Position numbers and translations under genes: made by a program
Shown here: positions 2,013 to 12,713 of the stretch, piece by piece
Layout: each line of letters opens with the position of its first letter
Numbering within the stretch: position 1 is the first letter of the stretch
Assembly (NCBI GenBank): GCA_013152355.1
Contig: JAADGO010000127.1
Coordinates: 1 to 52,857, forward strand
Direction of reading: 5' to 3'
DNA: 52,857 nucleotides
DNA from: Chlorobiota bacterium
Lineage (GTDB): Bacteria > Bacteroidota > Bacteroidia > Bacteroidales > Prolixibacteraceae
Notes under the pieces: model-generated
Told to the model about the DNA's origin: nothing
The model's database searches: none
Seen by the model: only the letters and a program-made list of their open reading frames with translations

Positions 2013-2750
2013 TTAAAGATAGAGGAATGATACGGTTGCTATTAAAGTCCCGATTATCGGGCCTGCAATGGGTATCCATGAATATTGCCAGTCGCTGCTC
2101 CCCTTATGGTTCATTGGGAGCACCCAGTGCATGATGCGCGGGCCCAGGTCACGTGCCGGGTTAATTGCATACCCTGTTGTACCTCCCAGCGAAAGGCCAA
2201 TTGCAGTAACCAGCAGTGCCACAGGCAGTGCCCCCAGGGTTCCCAGCCCTAATTTAGGGTCTTCTACCCCGGGCATATCAATACTGGGGCCGCTTAAATA
2301 AAAAATAACGAACATAAGGACAAATGTCCCGATAATCTCGCTAATCAGGTTGCTGGAGAATTTACGTATAGCCGGGCTGGTTGAGAAGCAGGCAAGTTGC
2401 CCGTCCGGGTTTTCGGTTTGGTTAAAGTGGTTTTTATATGTCAACCATACGAGGAATGCCCCGGTAGCTGCACCCAGTATTTGCGACAGGATGAATCCTG
2501 CTACTTTGCCCCATTCGAACAAACCGGCTGCTGCCAGCCCAATGGTTACTGCCGGGTTAATATGCGCTCCGGAAATAGGGCCTGCAACGGCTACCCCGAC
2601 AAAAACAGCCAGCCCCCAGCCCAGGGTTATCACAATCCAGCCACCATTGTGCCCTTTTGTACCTTTCAATACAACATTGGCAACTACTCCGTTACCCAAA
2701 AGGACAAGTAACATGGTGCCTACGAATTCTGCAGTATATTCATTCATCAT
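2013..2750 (-). CDS. glpF: Glycerol uptake facilitator / aquaporin (MIP family)
   Basis: Two NPA boxes (GAHINPAVTIG, GYAINPARDLGPR); adjacent to glpK. Confidence 0.92.
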   Translation of the reverse strand: MMNEYTAEFVGTMLLVLLGNGVVANVVLKGTKGHNGGWIVITLGWGLAVFVGVAVAGPISGAHINPAVTIGLAAAGLFEWGKVAGFILSQILGAATGAFLVWLTYKNHFNQTENPDGQLACFSTSPAIRKFSSNLISEIIGTFVLMFVIFYLSGPSIDMPGVEDPKLGLGTLGALPVALLVTAIGLSLGGTTGYAINPARDLGPRIMHWVLPMNHKGSSDWQYSWIPIAGPIIGTLIATVSFLYL

Positions 2751-2806: not shown

Positions 2807-4312
2807 TTATTGAGCTGTATTTTCCCATTTCTTAGCCCTGGATATAGCTTTTGCCCAATCGGCCAGTAATTGCTCTTTTTCTTTTTGAGGAATATCCATT
2901 ATAAATTTACGGTCAACTGCCCATTGCCCTTTAATTTCATCTATACTGCCCCAATAATTTACAGCCAGCCCTGCCAGATAAGCAGCACCAAGTGCTGTTG
3001 TTTCAATTGTTTCGGGCCGGATCACAGGGACACCGATCATGTTTGCCTGAATTTGCATGAGCAGGTTGTTCACCACGGCACCGCCATCTACTTTCAATTC
3101 ATTGATTTTTATCCCGGCATCGGCTTCCATAGCTTTGATAACATCCACTACCTGGAATGCGATACTTTCGAGGGCCGACCGTGCAATGTGTCCCGCATTT
3201 GTGCCACGGGTTAATCCGGCGATTATGCCACGCGCATACTGATCCCAGTGAGGTGCTCCCAGCCCGGTAAAAGCAGGGACAAAATATACTCCTCCATTGT
3301 TTTCCACAGTGCGTGCGAGGGTTTCCACCTCCGAAGAATCTTTAATAATACCCAGCCCATCGCGAAGCCATTGCACCACGGCACCGCCAATAAAAATACT
3401 TCCTTCGAGGGCATAGGTTGTTTTACCACCTATTTGCCAGGCAATAGTTGTAAGCAGGTTGTTTTTCGACCGTACTGGTTTTTCCCCGGTATTGCACAGC
3501 ATAAAGCACCCTGTTCCGTAAGTATTTTTTACCGACCCCGGGGTAAGGCACATTTGTCCGAAAGTTGCAGCCTGCTGGTCGCCTGCAATTCCTGAAATAG
3601 CAATAGGCTGCCCAAAAAGTGCCTCATTGGTGTATCCGTATACTTCTGAGGATGATTTTACCTCGGGAAGTATGCCCTCAGGGATACCTAATAGTGTCAG
3701 CAACTCTTCATCCCAGGTAAGCGTATGGATGTTAAACAGCATGGTACGGCTGGCATTGGTAACGTCTGTTACATGCACATTGCCATTGGTTAGTTTGTAT
3801 ATCAGCCACGTGTCGATGGTGCCAAAGGCCAACCTGCCTGATTCTGCCTTTTCCCTTGCGCCTTCAACATGGTCAAGTATCCACCTTAGTTTTGTGCCTG
3901 AAAAATAAGAATCAACTACTAACCCGGTTTTTGCATTAATTGTTTCTCCAAGCCCCTGTTTTCGAAGTTCATCGCAGTATTCAGATGTCCGCCTGTCCTG
4001 CCATACAATGGCATTGTAAACAGGTTCTCCTGTCTCCCTGTCCCATACCACTGTGGTTTCGCGTTGGTTGGTAATGCCAATAGCCGCAATGCCCCGGCTT
4101 CCTTCTTTTGTTTTGGAAATTACTTCTTTTGCAGTCTCTAGTTGTGTTGACCATATTTGGTTGGGAGAGTGTTCTACCCAGCCTGGTTTCGGGAATATTT
4201 GTTCAAATTCTTTTTGGGCAACATGAAGTATCTTCCCTTTTTTATTAAAAAGGATTGCCCTTGAGCTTGTTGTGCCCTGGTCAAGAGCCAGTATTAATTT
4301 CTCTTTAGCCAT
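2807..4312 (-). CDS. glpK: Glycerol kinase with intact motifs
   Basis: [77 protein letters not shown]. Confidence 0.96.
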
Positions 4313-4403: not shown

Positions 4404-5972
4404 TTATTCGTTTAGTATATAACCTTGTGCCAGGTTGTTATACATTTCTACCTGTTTCTTTTGCCATTCGCCATTGTAGCCCATTTCTTCAGCCATAAGT
4501 TTTGCAACTTTTGGGGCAATGCGTATGCTTTCGCGTGCATCGAGTAGCAAAGCCCTGGTCCTCCGGGAAAGGCAATCTTCAACAGTACGGGCCATTTCGT
4601 TACGTACCGCCAGGATAATCTGTGCATTGATAAGCCCAAGTTTCTCGCTTAAAAAATCGCCCATGGCGGGAGACTCTTTTATCAAATTGGTTAACAATTA
4701 TTTTTTGTCTGACCCATAATAATAAAGCGGGTCGTTTAAATCGACATCATTTTGGTATCCGTGTATTTTCAGGGCCTTTGTCACTGATTTTTTTAACGGC
4801 AATCCGGCTGTTGCCGATATTTTATTGATTACCTCTTCGGCCATTAACCTGTAGGTAGTCCATTTCCCCCCGGTAAGTGTTACCAGCCCCGATTTGGACA
4901 CCAGAATCTTGTGCCTTCTGGAGATTTCTTTGGTTTTTTTATTTTTTGAAGCAGGGGCCGCCAAAGGGCGTAGCCCGGCGAATACACTAAGCACATCCGA
5001 ACGCCTGGGTGGGGTAATAAGATAGCGACCGGCAGTTTCAAGGATAAAGTCTACCTCTTCGGATAACGGCTGGGGTTCAATTTCTGCAATATTTTTTTCA
5101 ATGTCGGTTGTGCCAACAACTACTTTATTATGCCATGGTACGGCAAATAAAACGCGCCCATCGCTGGTTTTTGGGATCATAACAGCATAATCGCCGGGGA
5201 TAAATCTTTTATCAAGTACAAGGTGTACTCCCTGGCTTGGCTTTATGATATCCTTTGCCTGCGGGTTATCCATTTTTATTATCCCATCGACAAATACGCC
5301 TGTTGCATTGAGTACTGCTTTTGAGTGGATCTTGTATTCCCTGCCTGTTTCCTGGTCGATGGCAGCGACCCCGTCAATTTTACCGTTTTTTTTGAGAAGG
5401 CTGGTTACCTTCATATAATTTATGGCTACGCCTCCGTTTTCTATAAAGGACTGGCATATATTTATTGCCAGCCTTGAATCGTCAAACTGCCCATCGTGGT
5501 AAATGACCCCGCCCCGGAGATTCTCGGCTTTTAGTGTTGGGATACTTTGTAGTGTACGCTTTTTTGTATAAGCAAGCGATTTCCCTAAACTTAGCTTTCC
5601 GGCAAGTAAATCGTATAGTTTAAGCCCGATGGTGTAAAATGGAATGCCCCACCAGTTATAGTTGGGGATAATAAACGATTGGTTTTTTACCAGGTGGGGG
5701 GCATTCTTCTTTAATAACCCTCTTTCGCGTAGTGCTTCAAGTACCAGCAAAATATCTCCCTGGGCAAGGTACCTTACCCCTCCATGTACCAGTTTGGTAC
5801 TCCGGCTTGAAGTGCCTTTGGTGAAATCGCATTGTTCGAGCAGAAGTGTTTTAAACCCGCGTGTTGCCGATTCAAGAGCTGCCCCAATTCCTGATGCACC
5901 TCCACCAATGACTATTACATCCCATAAACCATTAGCTTCTTCCAGCTTCTTTATCATTTTGTCCCTGTTCAT
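4404..5972 (-). pseudogene. glpD: Glycerol-3-phosphate dehydrogenase interrupted by one in-frame TAA
   Basis: ORFs 4698-5972 and 4404-4697 are contiguous and in the same frame: ...YYYGSDKK-*-LLTNLIKESPAMGDFLSEKLG...; the second is the GlpD C-terminal domain (RNEMARTVEDCLSRRTRALLLDA). Confidence 0.85.
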
Positions 5973-6054: not shown

Positions 6055-6071
6055 TACATAGTATAACGATG
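6055..6071 (+). promoter_or_regulatory. Putative PadR operator, site 1 upstream of glpD
   Basis: TACATAGTATAACGATG; near-identical copy at 6106-6122 and related copy upstream of padR. Confidence 0.5.
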
Positions 6072-6105
6072 TTGAAGTATTAGATTATTGCATTCTATAA
6101 AAAGA

Positions 6106-6122
6106 TACATTGTATAACGATG
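6106..6122 (+). promoter_or_regulatory. Putative PadR operator, site 2 upstream of glpD
   Basis: TACATTGTATAACGATG, 16/17 match to site 1, 51 bp apart. Confidence 0.5.
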
Positions 6123-6138
6123 CTTTTAGTTAAAATTT

Positions 6139-7635
6139 TTATTGGTCTTCGGGGTCGAGCCATTTTTGTGATTTTAAAACGGCTTTACTCCAGTATTTTT
6201 TGATTTTATAAACTTTTGAGCTATCCATTCCGGCATTATAAGTCCTGGCAGCTTCCCAATGTTGCTTTACCTCGTCAATACTATCCCAGAATCCAACAGC
6301 AAGGCCTGCCATATATGCACTTCCAAGGGCTGCAGTTTCAATATTTGCAGGTTGTACAATTGGCACATTAAGTATATCTGCCTGGAATTGTAAAAGCATA
6401 TCGTTTATTAAGCGGCCACTAACCCTGATCTCGGACAGTTTCAACCCTGAATCTTTTTCCATGGTATGCAGTACATCGGCGGCACTTAATGCTATAGATT
6501 CGATAACTGCCCGTGCAATGTTGCCAGTGGTAGTGCCCATGTTCAGCCCCCAGAATGTACCCCTTGCATACTGGTCCCAGTAGGGGGCACCCAACCCCGA
6601 CAGTGCCGGCACAATATATACTCCACCGTTGTCGGCCTCGGTTCGGGCCAGTTGTTCGAGTTCCTTGTCCGAATTGATCAGCCCCAATACATCGCGAAGC
6701 CATTGGATGATTGTCCCTCCTGCAAATGCGCTTCCTTCCAGGGCATAGGTTGTGTGCCCCCCGACTTGCCAGGCAACAGTTGACAAAAGGTTGTTGGTAG
6801 AAACAGGTTTATCGCCAACATTCATTAACATAAAGCTTCCGGTGTTGTAGGTATTCTCAACCATCCCTCTTTCGAGGCACATTTGCCCGAATAGTGAGGC
6901 TTGCTGGTCGCCGCAAATACCGGCAATAGGAATATTGGTGCCAAAAAGCGATTTGTCTGTGTAACCGTATACTTCGCTTGACGATTTTACTTCGGGGAGA
7001 ATATCTTCAGGGATGTTAAATATTTCGAGTAATTCTTTATCCCACTGAAGTTTATGGATGTTGAAAAGCATTGTCCTACTGGCATTTGAGACATCGGTTA
7101 CATGTACCTTGCCTTTGGTAAGTTTCCATACAAGCCAACTATCGACAGTGCCAAATGCCAGTTTCCCCGCTTCTGCTAATTCCCTGGCTCCTTCATAATA
7201 ATCAAGCATCCATTTCAGCTTTGTCCCGGAAAATATTGCATCAATCTGCAATCCTGTTTTTTCTTTTATTAAAGGCTGGTAACCTTTGGCTTTCAGTTCT
7301 TCGCAAAACTTCATAGTCCTTTTATCGTGCCAAACAATTGCCCTGCCAAGTGGCTGCCCTGTTTCTTTATTCCATACAATGGCCGTTTCGCGCTGGTTGG
7401 AGATACCTATGGAGGCGATTGCCTCGGGTTGTACCCCCGATTTAGCAATTGCTTCTTCGGCAACACTTGCCAGTATATACCATATTTCACGGGCATCTTG
7501 CTCGGCTAAACTGGTCTTTGGGAAAAATTGTTCAATTTCTTTACCTGCCGAAGAAACAAGGATACCCGATTTATCGAAGATAAAGGCTTGTGACAACGAT
7601 GTCCCCTGGATTAGTGATAGTACATATTTTTTCAT
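6139..7635 (-). CDS. Glycerol kinase paralog with degenerate catalytic motifs (putative pseudokinase)
   Basis: Full-length FGGY/GlpK similarity, but DQGTTSSR->IQGTSLSQ, YFSGTK->IFSGTK, TYGTG->[14 protein letters not shown]->VSGRLIND. Confidence 0.85.
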   Translation of the reverse strand: MKKYVLSLIQGTSLSQAFIFDKSGILVSSAGKEIEQFFPKTSLAEQDAREIWYILASVAEEAIAKSGVQPEAIASIGISNQRETAIVWNKETGQPLGRAIVWHDKRTMKFCEELKAKGYQPLIKEKTGLQIDAIFSGTKLKWMLDYYEGARELAEAGKLAFGTVDSWLVWKLTKGKVHVTDVSNASRTMLFNIHKLQWDKELLEIFNIPEDILPEVKSSSEVYGYTDKSLFGTNIPIAGICGDQQASLFGQMCLERGMVENTYNTGSFMLMNVGDKPVSTNNLLSTVAWQVGGHTTYALEGSAFAGGTIIQWLRDVLGLINSDKELEQLARTEADNGGVYIVPALSGLGAPYWDQYARGTFWGLNMGTTTGNIARAVIESIALSAADVLHTMEKDSGLKLSEIRVSGRLINDMLLQFQADILNVPIVQPANIETAALGSAYMAGLAVGFWDSIDEVKQHWEAARTYNAGMDSSKVYKIKKYWSKAVLKSQKWLDPEDQ

Positions 7636-7649
7636 CTCAATAAACCATT

Positions 7650-8021
7650 TTATCTGTTTTCCGGCATCTCCTGTTTGTTCTTCAACTTGGCAATAGCCAT
7701 GTTAAGTGCTTCAAGATAACTGCTCATTATGCTTAGATGCTCTTCCCCCTTAGGTGTTATTTTGTAGTATTTCCTGGGGATACCTACCTCTTTTTCAATC
7801 CATTCGGAGGTAACCAGCCCTTCTTTCTTCAGCCTGTTCAAAAGTGGGTATATAGTTCCTTCAGCAATCTCTAAAGAAGCAAAATGGTGGATGTCGTTTA
7901 TTAGCTCGTACCCATAACAGGATTTTGTTTTTAAAACAAGCATAATAATATATTCCAAAAGCCCCTTTTTAATCTGAGATTTCCACTTTGAAATAAAATA
8001 TGGCTCATTATCAATATCCAT
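7650..8021 (-). CDS. PadR-family transcriptional regulator
   Basis: KKGLLEYIIMLVLKTKSCYGYELINDI...EIAEGTIYPLLNRLKKEGLVTSEW...PRKYYKITPKGEEHL. ATG at 8021 preferred over the TTG at 8030 used in the ORF track. Confidence 0.92.
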   Translation of the reverse strand: MDIDNEPYFISKWKSQIKKGLLEYIIMLVLKTKSCYGYELINDIHHFASLEIAEGTIYPLLNRLKKEGLVTSEWIEKEVGIPRKYYKITPKGEEHLSIMSSYLEALNMAIAKLKNKQEMPENR

Positions 8022-8027
8022 TTGTAG

Positions 8028-8079
8028 CAAATATAAATGTTATTACATAGTTATACAAGGCACATCGTAATAATATGTA
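8028..8079 (-). promoter_or_regulatory. padR promoter with overlapping putative operators
   Basis: Minus strand: -7 TATATTTG (8028-8035) matches Bacteroidota TAnnTTTG; TTG ~20 nt upstream; operator-like TACATATTATTACGATG (minus strand, 8063-8079) and weaker TACATAGTTATACAAGG (8044-8060). Confidence 0.5.
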
Positions 8080-10176: not shown

Positions 10177-10191
10177 CCCCGATAATTTATG

Positions 10192-10272
10192 CAATGGGGT
10201 GCCTTAATATTAAGGGCTGAGATTATACCCACAGAACCTGATCCGGGTATAATTCCGGCGAAGGGAAGGGCT
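10192..10272 (+). ncRNA. TPP (THI-box) riboswitch
   Basis: GGGGTGCC...GGGCTGAGATTATACCCACAGAACCTGATCCGGGTATAATTCCGGCGAAGGGAAG: conserved CTGAGA, ACCC, GAACCTGATC.GG.TAAT.CCGGCG.AGGGA core. Confidence 0.95.
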
Positions 10273-10320
10273 AAAGGGAATTCCCTCTCCATTGGTTAAA
10301 CATTAACCAAAAAAATCAAA

Positions 10321-12713
10321 ATGAAAAAAGTTTTATTGACGCTGACTTTACAGTTGGCAGTAATTGTGGCTTTTGCACAATTTAGTTTGAAGGGCAAAGT
10401 AACCGGGCAGGGGGGCGAGCCTCTCACCGGAGCCAGTGTTGTAATTAAAAACACGTACAATGGCATTTCAACAGCAACTGATGGAAGTTTTAGTTTTAAG
10501 CTGAAAGCCGGGCAATACACCCTAGTCGCCTCATTTATTGGTTACGAAAAGAAGGAGGTTCATGTTGAATTAAATTCAGACAAAGAAATTACAATTCAAA
10601 TGAAACCGTCCAGCATTTTAACCGAGGAGGTACTTATCTCGGCAACACGGGCAAAAGACAAAACCCCCATGGCCTTTACCAATGTTACCCACAGCGAGAT
10701 TGAGTCGCGTAACCTGGGGCAGGATATTCCCTACCTGTTGACGCTTACGCCTTCGTTTGTAGCTACATCGGATGCCGGGGCAGGGATTGGTTATACCAAC
10801 TTCCGTATCAGGGGAACCGACCTTAACAGGATTAATGTTACGGTAAACGGCATACCATACAACGATGCCGAGTCGCATGGGACATGGTTTGTTGACGTAC
10901 CCGACCTGGCAGGCTCAACCGAAAATATTCAGGTACAGCGTGGGGTAGGGACTTCTACCAATGGTGCTGCAGCTTTTGGGGCAACCATTAACCTGCAAAC
11001 AGCCAACCTGAAGAAAGAAGCACATGCCGAATACCGCACAGCTTATGGCAGTTTCAATACACTTAAAAATTCGGTTTCGGTAGGCTCCGGGTTAATCGAT
11101 GGGAAATTCACAGTGGATGCACGCCTCTCAAAAGTAACCTCTGACGGGTATATCGACCGGGCTTCGAGCGACCTGAAGTCATTTTTTATTTCGGCTGGTT
11201 ACCTCCGTGAAAACACTATTCTTAAACTGAATGTTTTCTCAGGTTTTGAAGAAACTTACCAGGCATGGTACGGGCTGCCGTCAGACATGCTTGAAACGGA
11301 TCGTAAATATAACTCTGCCGGCGAATATACCGATGAGAATGGGCAAACCCGCTACTATGAAAATCAGGTCGACCACTACCAGCAAGACCATTACCAATTA
11401 CACTTTTCGCACAAGTTTACACCGAACCTCTACCTGAATACGGCAGTGCATTACACCTATGGGCGGGGGTATTACGAATCGTACAAGGGCAACCGGAAAT
11501 TAAAAGACTACCTGCTTCCGGCTGTGGCAATCGGAGGGGAAACAATTGAAAGGACAGACCTTGTCCAACGTAAATGGCTGGACAACAATTTTTACGGGCT
11601 TATTTTTTCTCTGAACTACAAGAAAGCAAAAAGTGACTTGTCCTTTGGTGGCGGTTGGAATACTTACGATGGCGACCATTTTGGGCAGGTAATCTGGGCA
11701 AGGTATGCTTCAAACAGCAACCCTAACCATGAATGGTACCGCGGCACCGGGCTGAAACGGGATTATAACCTTTTCACAAAATACAGCTACCAGCTTACAG
11801 GGCAGTTAAACCTATATGCCGACTTACAGGTACGCCATATTGATTATGAAATCGGGGGTATTGATGATGACTTACGCGACCTTACCCAATCGCATAAGTT
11901 TAATTTTTTCAATCCTAAATTAGGTATGTTTTTCCAGCCTGCCCCGAATCAGGATATTTATTTCTCGTATGCCCGTGCTAATCGTGAACCAAACCGTGCT
12001 AACTATACCGATGCCAACCCCGAAGGGCCGCAACCTGTGAAACACTTAATGACTTTGAATTGGGGTATAGTTTTAAGTCGGCAAACCTGATGCTAGGGGC
12101 TAACCTTTACTACATGAGATATAAAGACCAGTTGATCCTTACCGGGGAGATTAATGATGTAGGTGCGCCAATTATGGTAAATGTTGATAAAAGTTACCGG
12201 TCGGGTATTGAGCTTCAGGTAGGTATAAAACTGGCATCGCAACTTAAATGGGATGTGAATGCAACATTTAGTAAAAACAAAATCATTAATTTTACGGAAT
12301 TTGTTGATGACTGGGATACATGGGGGCAAAGGTCGTTTGAACTTGGGGAAACCGACCTGGCATTCTCTCCTGGCACAATTGTAAACAGCCAACTTAGTTA
12401 CAGCCCGGTAGAAAAGTTCAATATCAGGTTTATTTCATTGTTTGTCGGCGACCAGTTTATAGACAACACTTCGAGTGAAAGCCGCAAACTCGATGCTTAT
12501 TTCGTGAACAACCTGAGGGTAGACTATTCTTTTTCAACAGGATTGTTTAAAGAAATAATAATACATGCAGTGGCTAACAACCTGATGAATGTTATGTATG
12601 AATCAAATGCCTGGGTTTATTCCTATTTCTACGAAGGTAAACGTCAGAAAATGGACGGCTATTACCCACAAGCCGGAAGGTATTTTATGTTTGGCGTAGA
12701 TTTTAAATTTTAG
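10321..12713 (+). pseudogene. TonB-dependent receptor (predicted thiamin uptake), frameshifted near 12040
   Basis: ORF 10321-12090 (CarboxypepD_reg-like + plug + barrel start) continues in another frame as 12060-12713. Junction: frame 1 ...PVKH, frame 3 ETLNDFELGYSFKSANLMLG.... Confidence 0.88.

Follow-up and report, generated by a model that had tools for sequence, protein, structure and literature searches.

The 19-bp palindromes that occur in four copies within the window (the whole stretch of 52,857 nucleotides analysed) are predicted from sequence comparison to be the operators of an adjacent PadR-family regulator controlling glycerol genes, a reading to which a probability of about 0.88 can be assigned. 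A PadR-controlled glycerol regulon had been put forward in a sequence-only reading of the same DNA, and the proposal now finds strong comparative support, given that the operator precedes glpD, glpT and glpAB in the genomes with this PadR and is missing wherever a glp locus lacks this regulator. All the genes involved lie on the minus strand of the window. The padR gene (7650..8021), which encodes a 123 aa PadR-family regulator (PF03551, 72.5 bits against a cut-off of 27), is followed after 14 bp by glpK2 (6139..7635), a glycerol-kinase paralog with FGGY_N/C domains and altered nucleotide-binding motifs, regarded as a predicted pseudokinase. Beyond an intergenic gap come glpD (4404..5972) for a G3P dehydrogenase, glpK (2807..4312) for a glycerol kinase with intact motifs (TIGR01311, 751 bits), and glpF (2013..2750) for a glycerol facilitator (MIP, PF00230). 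The glpD gene is interrupted by an in-frame TAA (4698-4700, minus strand), on either side of which the reading frame stays open; relatives have an uninterrupted glpD of 520-522 aa. The stop codon reflects either a nonsense mutation or an error in the assembly. Elsewhere in the window, a TPP riboswitch (10185-10284, plus strand; Rfam RF00059, 58.6 bits) lies upstream of an outer-membrane receptor-like ORF that starts at 10321 and is apparently split into 10321-12090 and 12060-12713 (overlap 12060-12090), which suggests a frameshift.

Direct reading of the sequence confirmed the four motif copies first noticed, namely TACATAGTATAACGATG (6055-6071) and TACATTGTATAACGATG (6106-6122) in the glpK2-glpD gap, TACATATTATTACGATG on the minus strand of 8063-8079, identical to the first site at 15 of 17 positions, and TACATAGTTATACAAGG (8044-8060). 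Their positions were right, but the unit was not a 17-mer: the true element is the 19-bp palindrome TACATWGTNNNNCNATGTA, with the form ACAT-N9-ATGT, of which the 17-mers are off-centre portions. When scored with a position weight matrix (PWM), the best predicted operator of the window is the glpD-proximal one of the glpK2-glpD gap (6055..6073; score 18.1, one mismatch to TACATWGTNNNNCNATGTA), with a distal one 51 bp away from it (6106..6124; 13.8). The operator that covers the -33 element and the spacer in the padR promoter (8044..8062; 17.2), previously taken for a weaker copy, is instead the second-best site of the window, and a second predicted operator adjoins it upstream of padR (8061..8079; 15.1).

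The position of these sites relative to promoter elements points to a mode of action. Sigma-A promoters of Bacteroidota show a -7 consensus TAnnTTTG (PMC9723704), and a box of this type, TATATTTG, was read from the sequence in the padR-glpK2 promoter (8028..8035, minus strand), 20 bp on from the -33 TTG. The site at 8044-8062 contains this TTG (8056-8058), as had been predicted, and ends 9 bp before the box, the same arrangement as in relatives. A TAnnTTTG box starts 8 or 9 bp past the palindrome at 37 of 73 sites, as compared to 6.6% of shuffled downstream 60-mers with such a box anywhere, and the -33 region is overlapped at about half of the sites. In the window's glpD promoter, no convincing -7 box was found. 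Since a protein bound on the -33 element would block RNA polymerase, repression is the likely mode of control by PadR. The spacings of twin sites (51, about 88-90 and about 110-129 bp) share no helical phase by eye, and no looping is therefore claimed; the second glpD site of Marinifilaceae, about 85-130 bp further downstream, may be an auxiliary operator.

The specificity of the motif was addressed with a weight matrix derived from the promoters of six distant padR genes without nearby glp genes, and from nothing else. With this matrix, the four window sites occupy ranks 1-4 (13.8-18.1), followed by a next best score of 7.0 in the 52.9-kb window, and intergenic-like random sequence yields about 0.012 sites per kb at scores of at least 14. 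In column-permuted palindromic matrices, the mean best score did not exceed 8.9 for glpD (22.9 observed) and 6.3 for glpA (18.9 observed). The possibility that the copies are due to chance or to a dispersed repeat deserves mention because TACATNNTATNACGATG with two mismatches stays at background level in the window's own genome (25 matches versus 34 for reversed controls), and searches with two or three mismatches gave counts equal to those of reversed controls and were uninformative. The pattern alone would consequently prove nothing, whereas the cross-genome comparison does: exact TACATNNTATNACGATG has three matches in the entire 3,384,859-base genome, every one at the padR/glp locus of the window, and, together with the matrix and permutation tests, the conservation of the sites at orthologous promoters rules this explanation out, leaving it a negligible probability. 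The motif is not common away from glp genes and is kept in relatives, two expectations of the sequence-only reading that were borne out. One further site of the same genome (C126:2573, score 18.1) falls within a large ORF with an apparently SusC-like start and was set aside as a chance match.

Loci with padR-glpK2 were read in 24 genomes, comprising the window, one genome of the same family (G066) and 22 Marinifilaceae (including Ancylomarina, Marinifilum breve and Labilibaculum), which are related to one another, so that the counts are not independent. All 24 carry one or, usually, two sites before glpD, and also before glpT where this gene follows; paired sites upstream of glpD are again seen in Marinifilaceae, 85-130 bp apart, and glpT of this family carries a PadR site as well. 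The prediction extends to an unlinked, anaerobic glpAB operon: in 19 of the 19 Marinifilaceae genomes with glpA, the highest-scoring match within the 4-kb locus is located 33-252 bp upstream of glpA, with scores from 10.5 to 23.6. GlpA, GlpB and GlpT were identified with NCBIfam models, all scoring above the cut-off, and neither glpA nor glpT was found in the window's own genome. One glp cluster (L233 and L234) contains two glpD genes, both of which have two PadR sites of their own. Between the operators and glpD, Marinifilaceae also have a conserved 48-aa ORF (MEDxRFDxxxGNRLYxFFLDIL...GSIWExWEKEL), absent from the window, which was located 23-62 bp before glpD or glpT (L052, L053, L054 and L218-L231), the copy before glpT being diverged; a small regulatory protein is a possible product.

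The control of padR by its own product, as first proposed, is supported for part of these genomes. Sites proximal to padR are found in the window, G066, Marinifilum and a genus of the window's family (g10), but they are absent from Ancylomarina and weak in Labilibaculum, and autoregulation is thus not universal. This PadR is present in five genomes of genus g10, and the four loci read share the order padR-glpK-glpD-glpF, in which GlpK is normal, glpK2 is missing and a single site precedes padR; GlpK2 is thus not strictly required.

A search with the PadR protein covered about 900 genomes. The relatives of the window PadR in the PDB are PadR proteins (best 5h20, 2.8e-23), and the length of 111-123 aa fits the PadR-s2 subfamily, characterized by a single C-terminal helix for dimerisation. 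Six distant homologs (L138-L143), with 50-57% identity, are encoded away from glp genes, and directly ahead of each of these padR genes lies a clean 19-bp palindrome such as TACATTGTATTACTATGTA. It is the occurrence of the same palindrome before padR genes without glp neighbours that ties the operator to PadR. In these six loci of Bacteroidia, the gene after padR, where tested, matches Pfam HAAS above the curated cut-off, except for one just below, and a second copy of the palindrome lies about 960-980 bp away in five of the six; such PadR-HAAS pairs with a shared palindrome are predicted to form a regulon. The PadR tree, built on about 120 columns, has a support too weak to date the recruitment of PadR. 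A different glycerol regulator, either of the GlpR/DeoR or the FNR/CRP type, could alternatively bind the palindrome, with PadR as an incidental neighbour. In the window, the interval from padR to glpF contains no ORF for a DeoR-type or GlpP regulator; the DeoR-domain proteins present elsewhere in the same genome would favour this alternative. However, besides the palindromes of padR genes without nearby glp genes, this explanation has to face the glp loci without this PadR, which lack the palindrome: in close relatives devoid of this PadR, 17 glpD loci gave zero sites with scores of at least 8, and a control set of 76 other glp loci (908 kb) gave a single match of at least 12, away from any glp gene start. 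A regulator other than PadR is accordingly considered very unlikely.

The gene directly after padR in all 24 genomes is a full-length glpK2. Its 24 orthologs share the replacement of TYGTG by TYNTG and of G[LI]TRG by GLNM, as well as a one-residue deletion at the DGG nucleotide motif, whereas none of the neighbouring GlpK copies has these changes, their TYGTG and DGG being intact. At the same time, all 24 retain the motifs of the glycerol pocket (QRET, the IVW tryptophan and GDQQ), and the early idea of a pseudokinase is backed at the motif level. Asp245 is kept in all the orthologs and Asp10 in most, and some residual kinase activity may persist. GlpK2 reaches 631 bits against TIGR01311 (cut-off 590), and automatic annotation would therefore name it GlpK. 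An AlphaFold model (pLDDT 69), with a poorly predicted C-terminal half, was set aside. The GlpK2 sequences form a single clade (support 100), in which the branch of the window is longer than that of glpK, and the window protein has additionally exchanged Asp10 for Ile and Arg17 for Gln and reads SG in place of GG within the DGG motif, as would be expected for a decaying duplicate devoid of function. Such decay is nevertheless highly improbable for a gene that is full-length in 24 genomes and shows dN/dS values of 0.01-0.035 (Marinifilaceae pairs, with large synonymous distances), lower than those of GlpK in nearly all pairs with both measured and mostly lower than those of GlpD. Most likely, GlpK2 is a constrained protein under strong purifying selection that is no longer an ordinary kinase.

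Taken together, PadR would bind palindromes covering the -33 region and the spacer in sigma-A promoters and so repress the glpD-glpK-glpF operon as well as padR-glpK2, with glpT and glpAB as further targets in Marinifilaceae, until glycerol or glycerol-3-phosphate, the presumed inducer, relieves this repression. As for the signal, GlpK2, co-transcribed with PadR, might be a kinase-derived glycerol sensor that reports to PadR in the manner of Gal3, a tentative but plausible proposal, and the simplest interpretation of this protein, with slightly less than an even chance. With a glycerol pocket but an abnormal ATP turnover, GlpK2 would bind glycerol, perhaps together with a nucleotide, and would then bind or release PadR; such a sensor could have originated when a bifunctional GlpK, as in the genus with padR-glpK-glpD-glpF, was joined by a dedicated non-catalytic copy. 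The other reading, somewhat below even odds, is that PadR itself senses glycerol or G3P, GlpK2 being a second kinase, weakly active or of different specificity, with no role in sensing. Ligand binding by the regulator itself is known from small, LmrR-like PadR proteins, LmrR binding drugs at the dimer interface, and both genus g10, in which PadR and a glp operon do without GlpK2, and the conserved aspartates of GlpK2 are in keeping with direct sensing. Harder to reconcile with it are the identical changes at the nucleotide-site motifs in all 24 orthologs and the tight linkage of glpK2 to padR in every one of them, despite a normal glpK nearby.

Glycerol regulation is poorly described in Bacteroidota, for which a regulator, an operator, a list of targets and a candidate sensor are now proposed. 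Full-text searches of the open-access literature retrieved no report of glycerol genes controlled by a PadR protein, nor of a bacterial glycerol-kinase pseudoenzyme as a regulator; the predicted PadR glycerol regulon would be new as far as searched, within a regulator family that is already known. If GlpK2 is indeed a sensor, some annotations of a 'second glycerol kinase' would correspond to regulators.

Among the known systems, GlpR (DeoR family) and GlpP control glpD, glpK, glpF, glpT and glpA in response to G3P. Their regulons overlap in target genes with the one described here, whereas the regulator family and the operator are unrelated, and a kinase paralog within the locus is a feature of the present system. 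The PadR-s2 repressors (LmrR of Lactococcus, cdPadR1 of C. difficile and the bcPadRs) are likewise small winged-helix PadR proteins with palindromic operators, one of them over their own promoter, but their targets are efflux or phenolic-acid genes instead of glycerol genes. The order of the operator also differs: known PadR operators, with those of cdPadR1 and LmrR described, share a common motif ATGT-N8-ACAT (PMC5050560), as opposed to ACAT-N9-ATGT here, the reported form being common but not defining. The PadR-HAAS pairs have the same operator sequence and a PadR with 50-57% identity, and differ in their HAAS-type neighbour in place of the kinase paralog and in the lack of nearby glp genes. 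Finally, in the GAL switch of yeast, Gal3 reports galactose to Gal80. Gal3 is a non-enzymatic galactokinase paralog from a bifunctional ancestor (PMC3048525), and the likeness to the present locus consists of a kinase paralog, altered in its catalytic site, beside a regulatory circuit, with some relatives having a single active kinase beside the regulator. If the sensor reading is true, bacteria would have arrived convergently at the logic of the yeast GAL switch by coupling a catalytically altered metabolic kinase to a repressor of a single domain, with glycerol as the substrate and PadR as the regulator.
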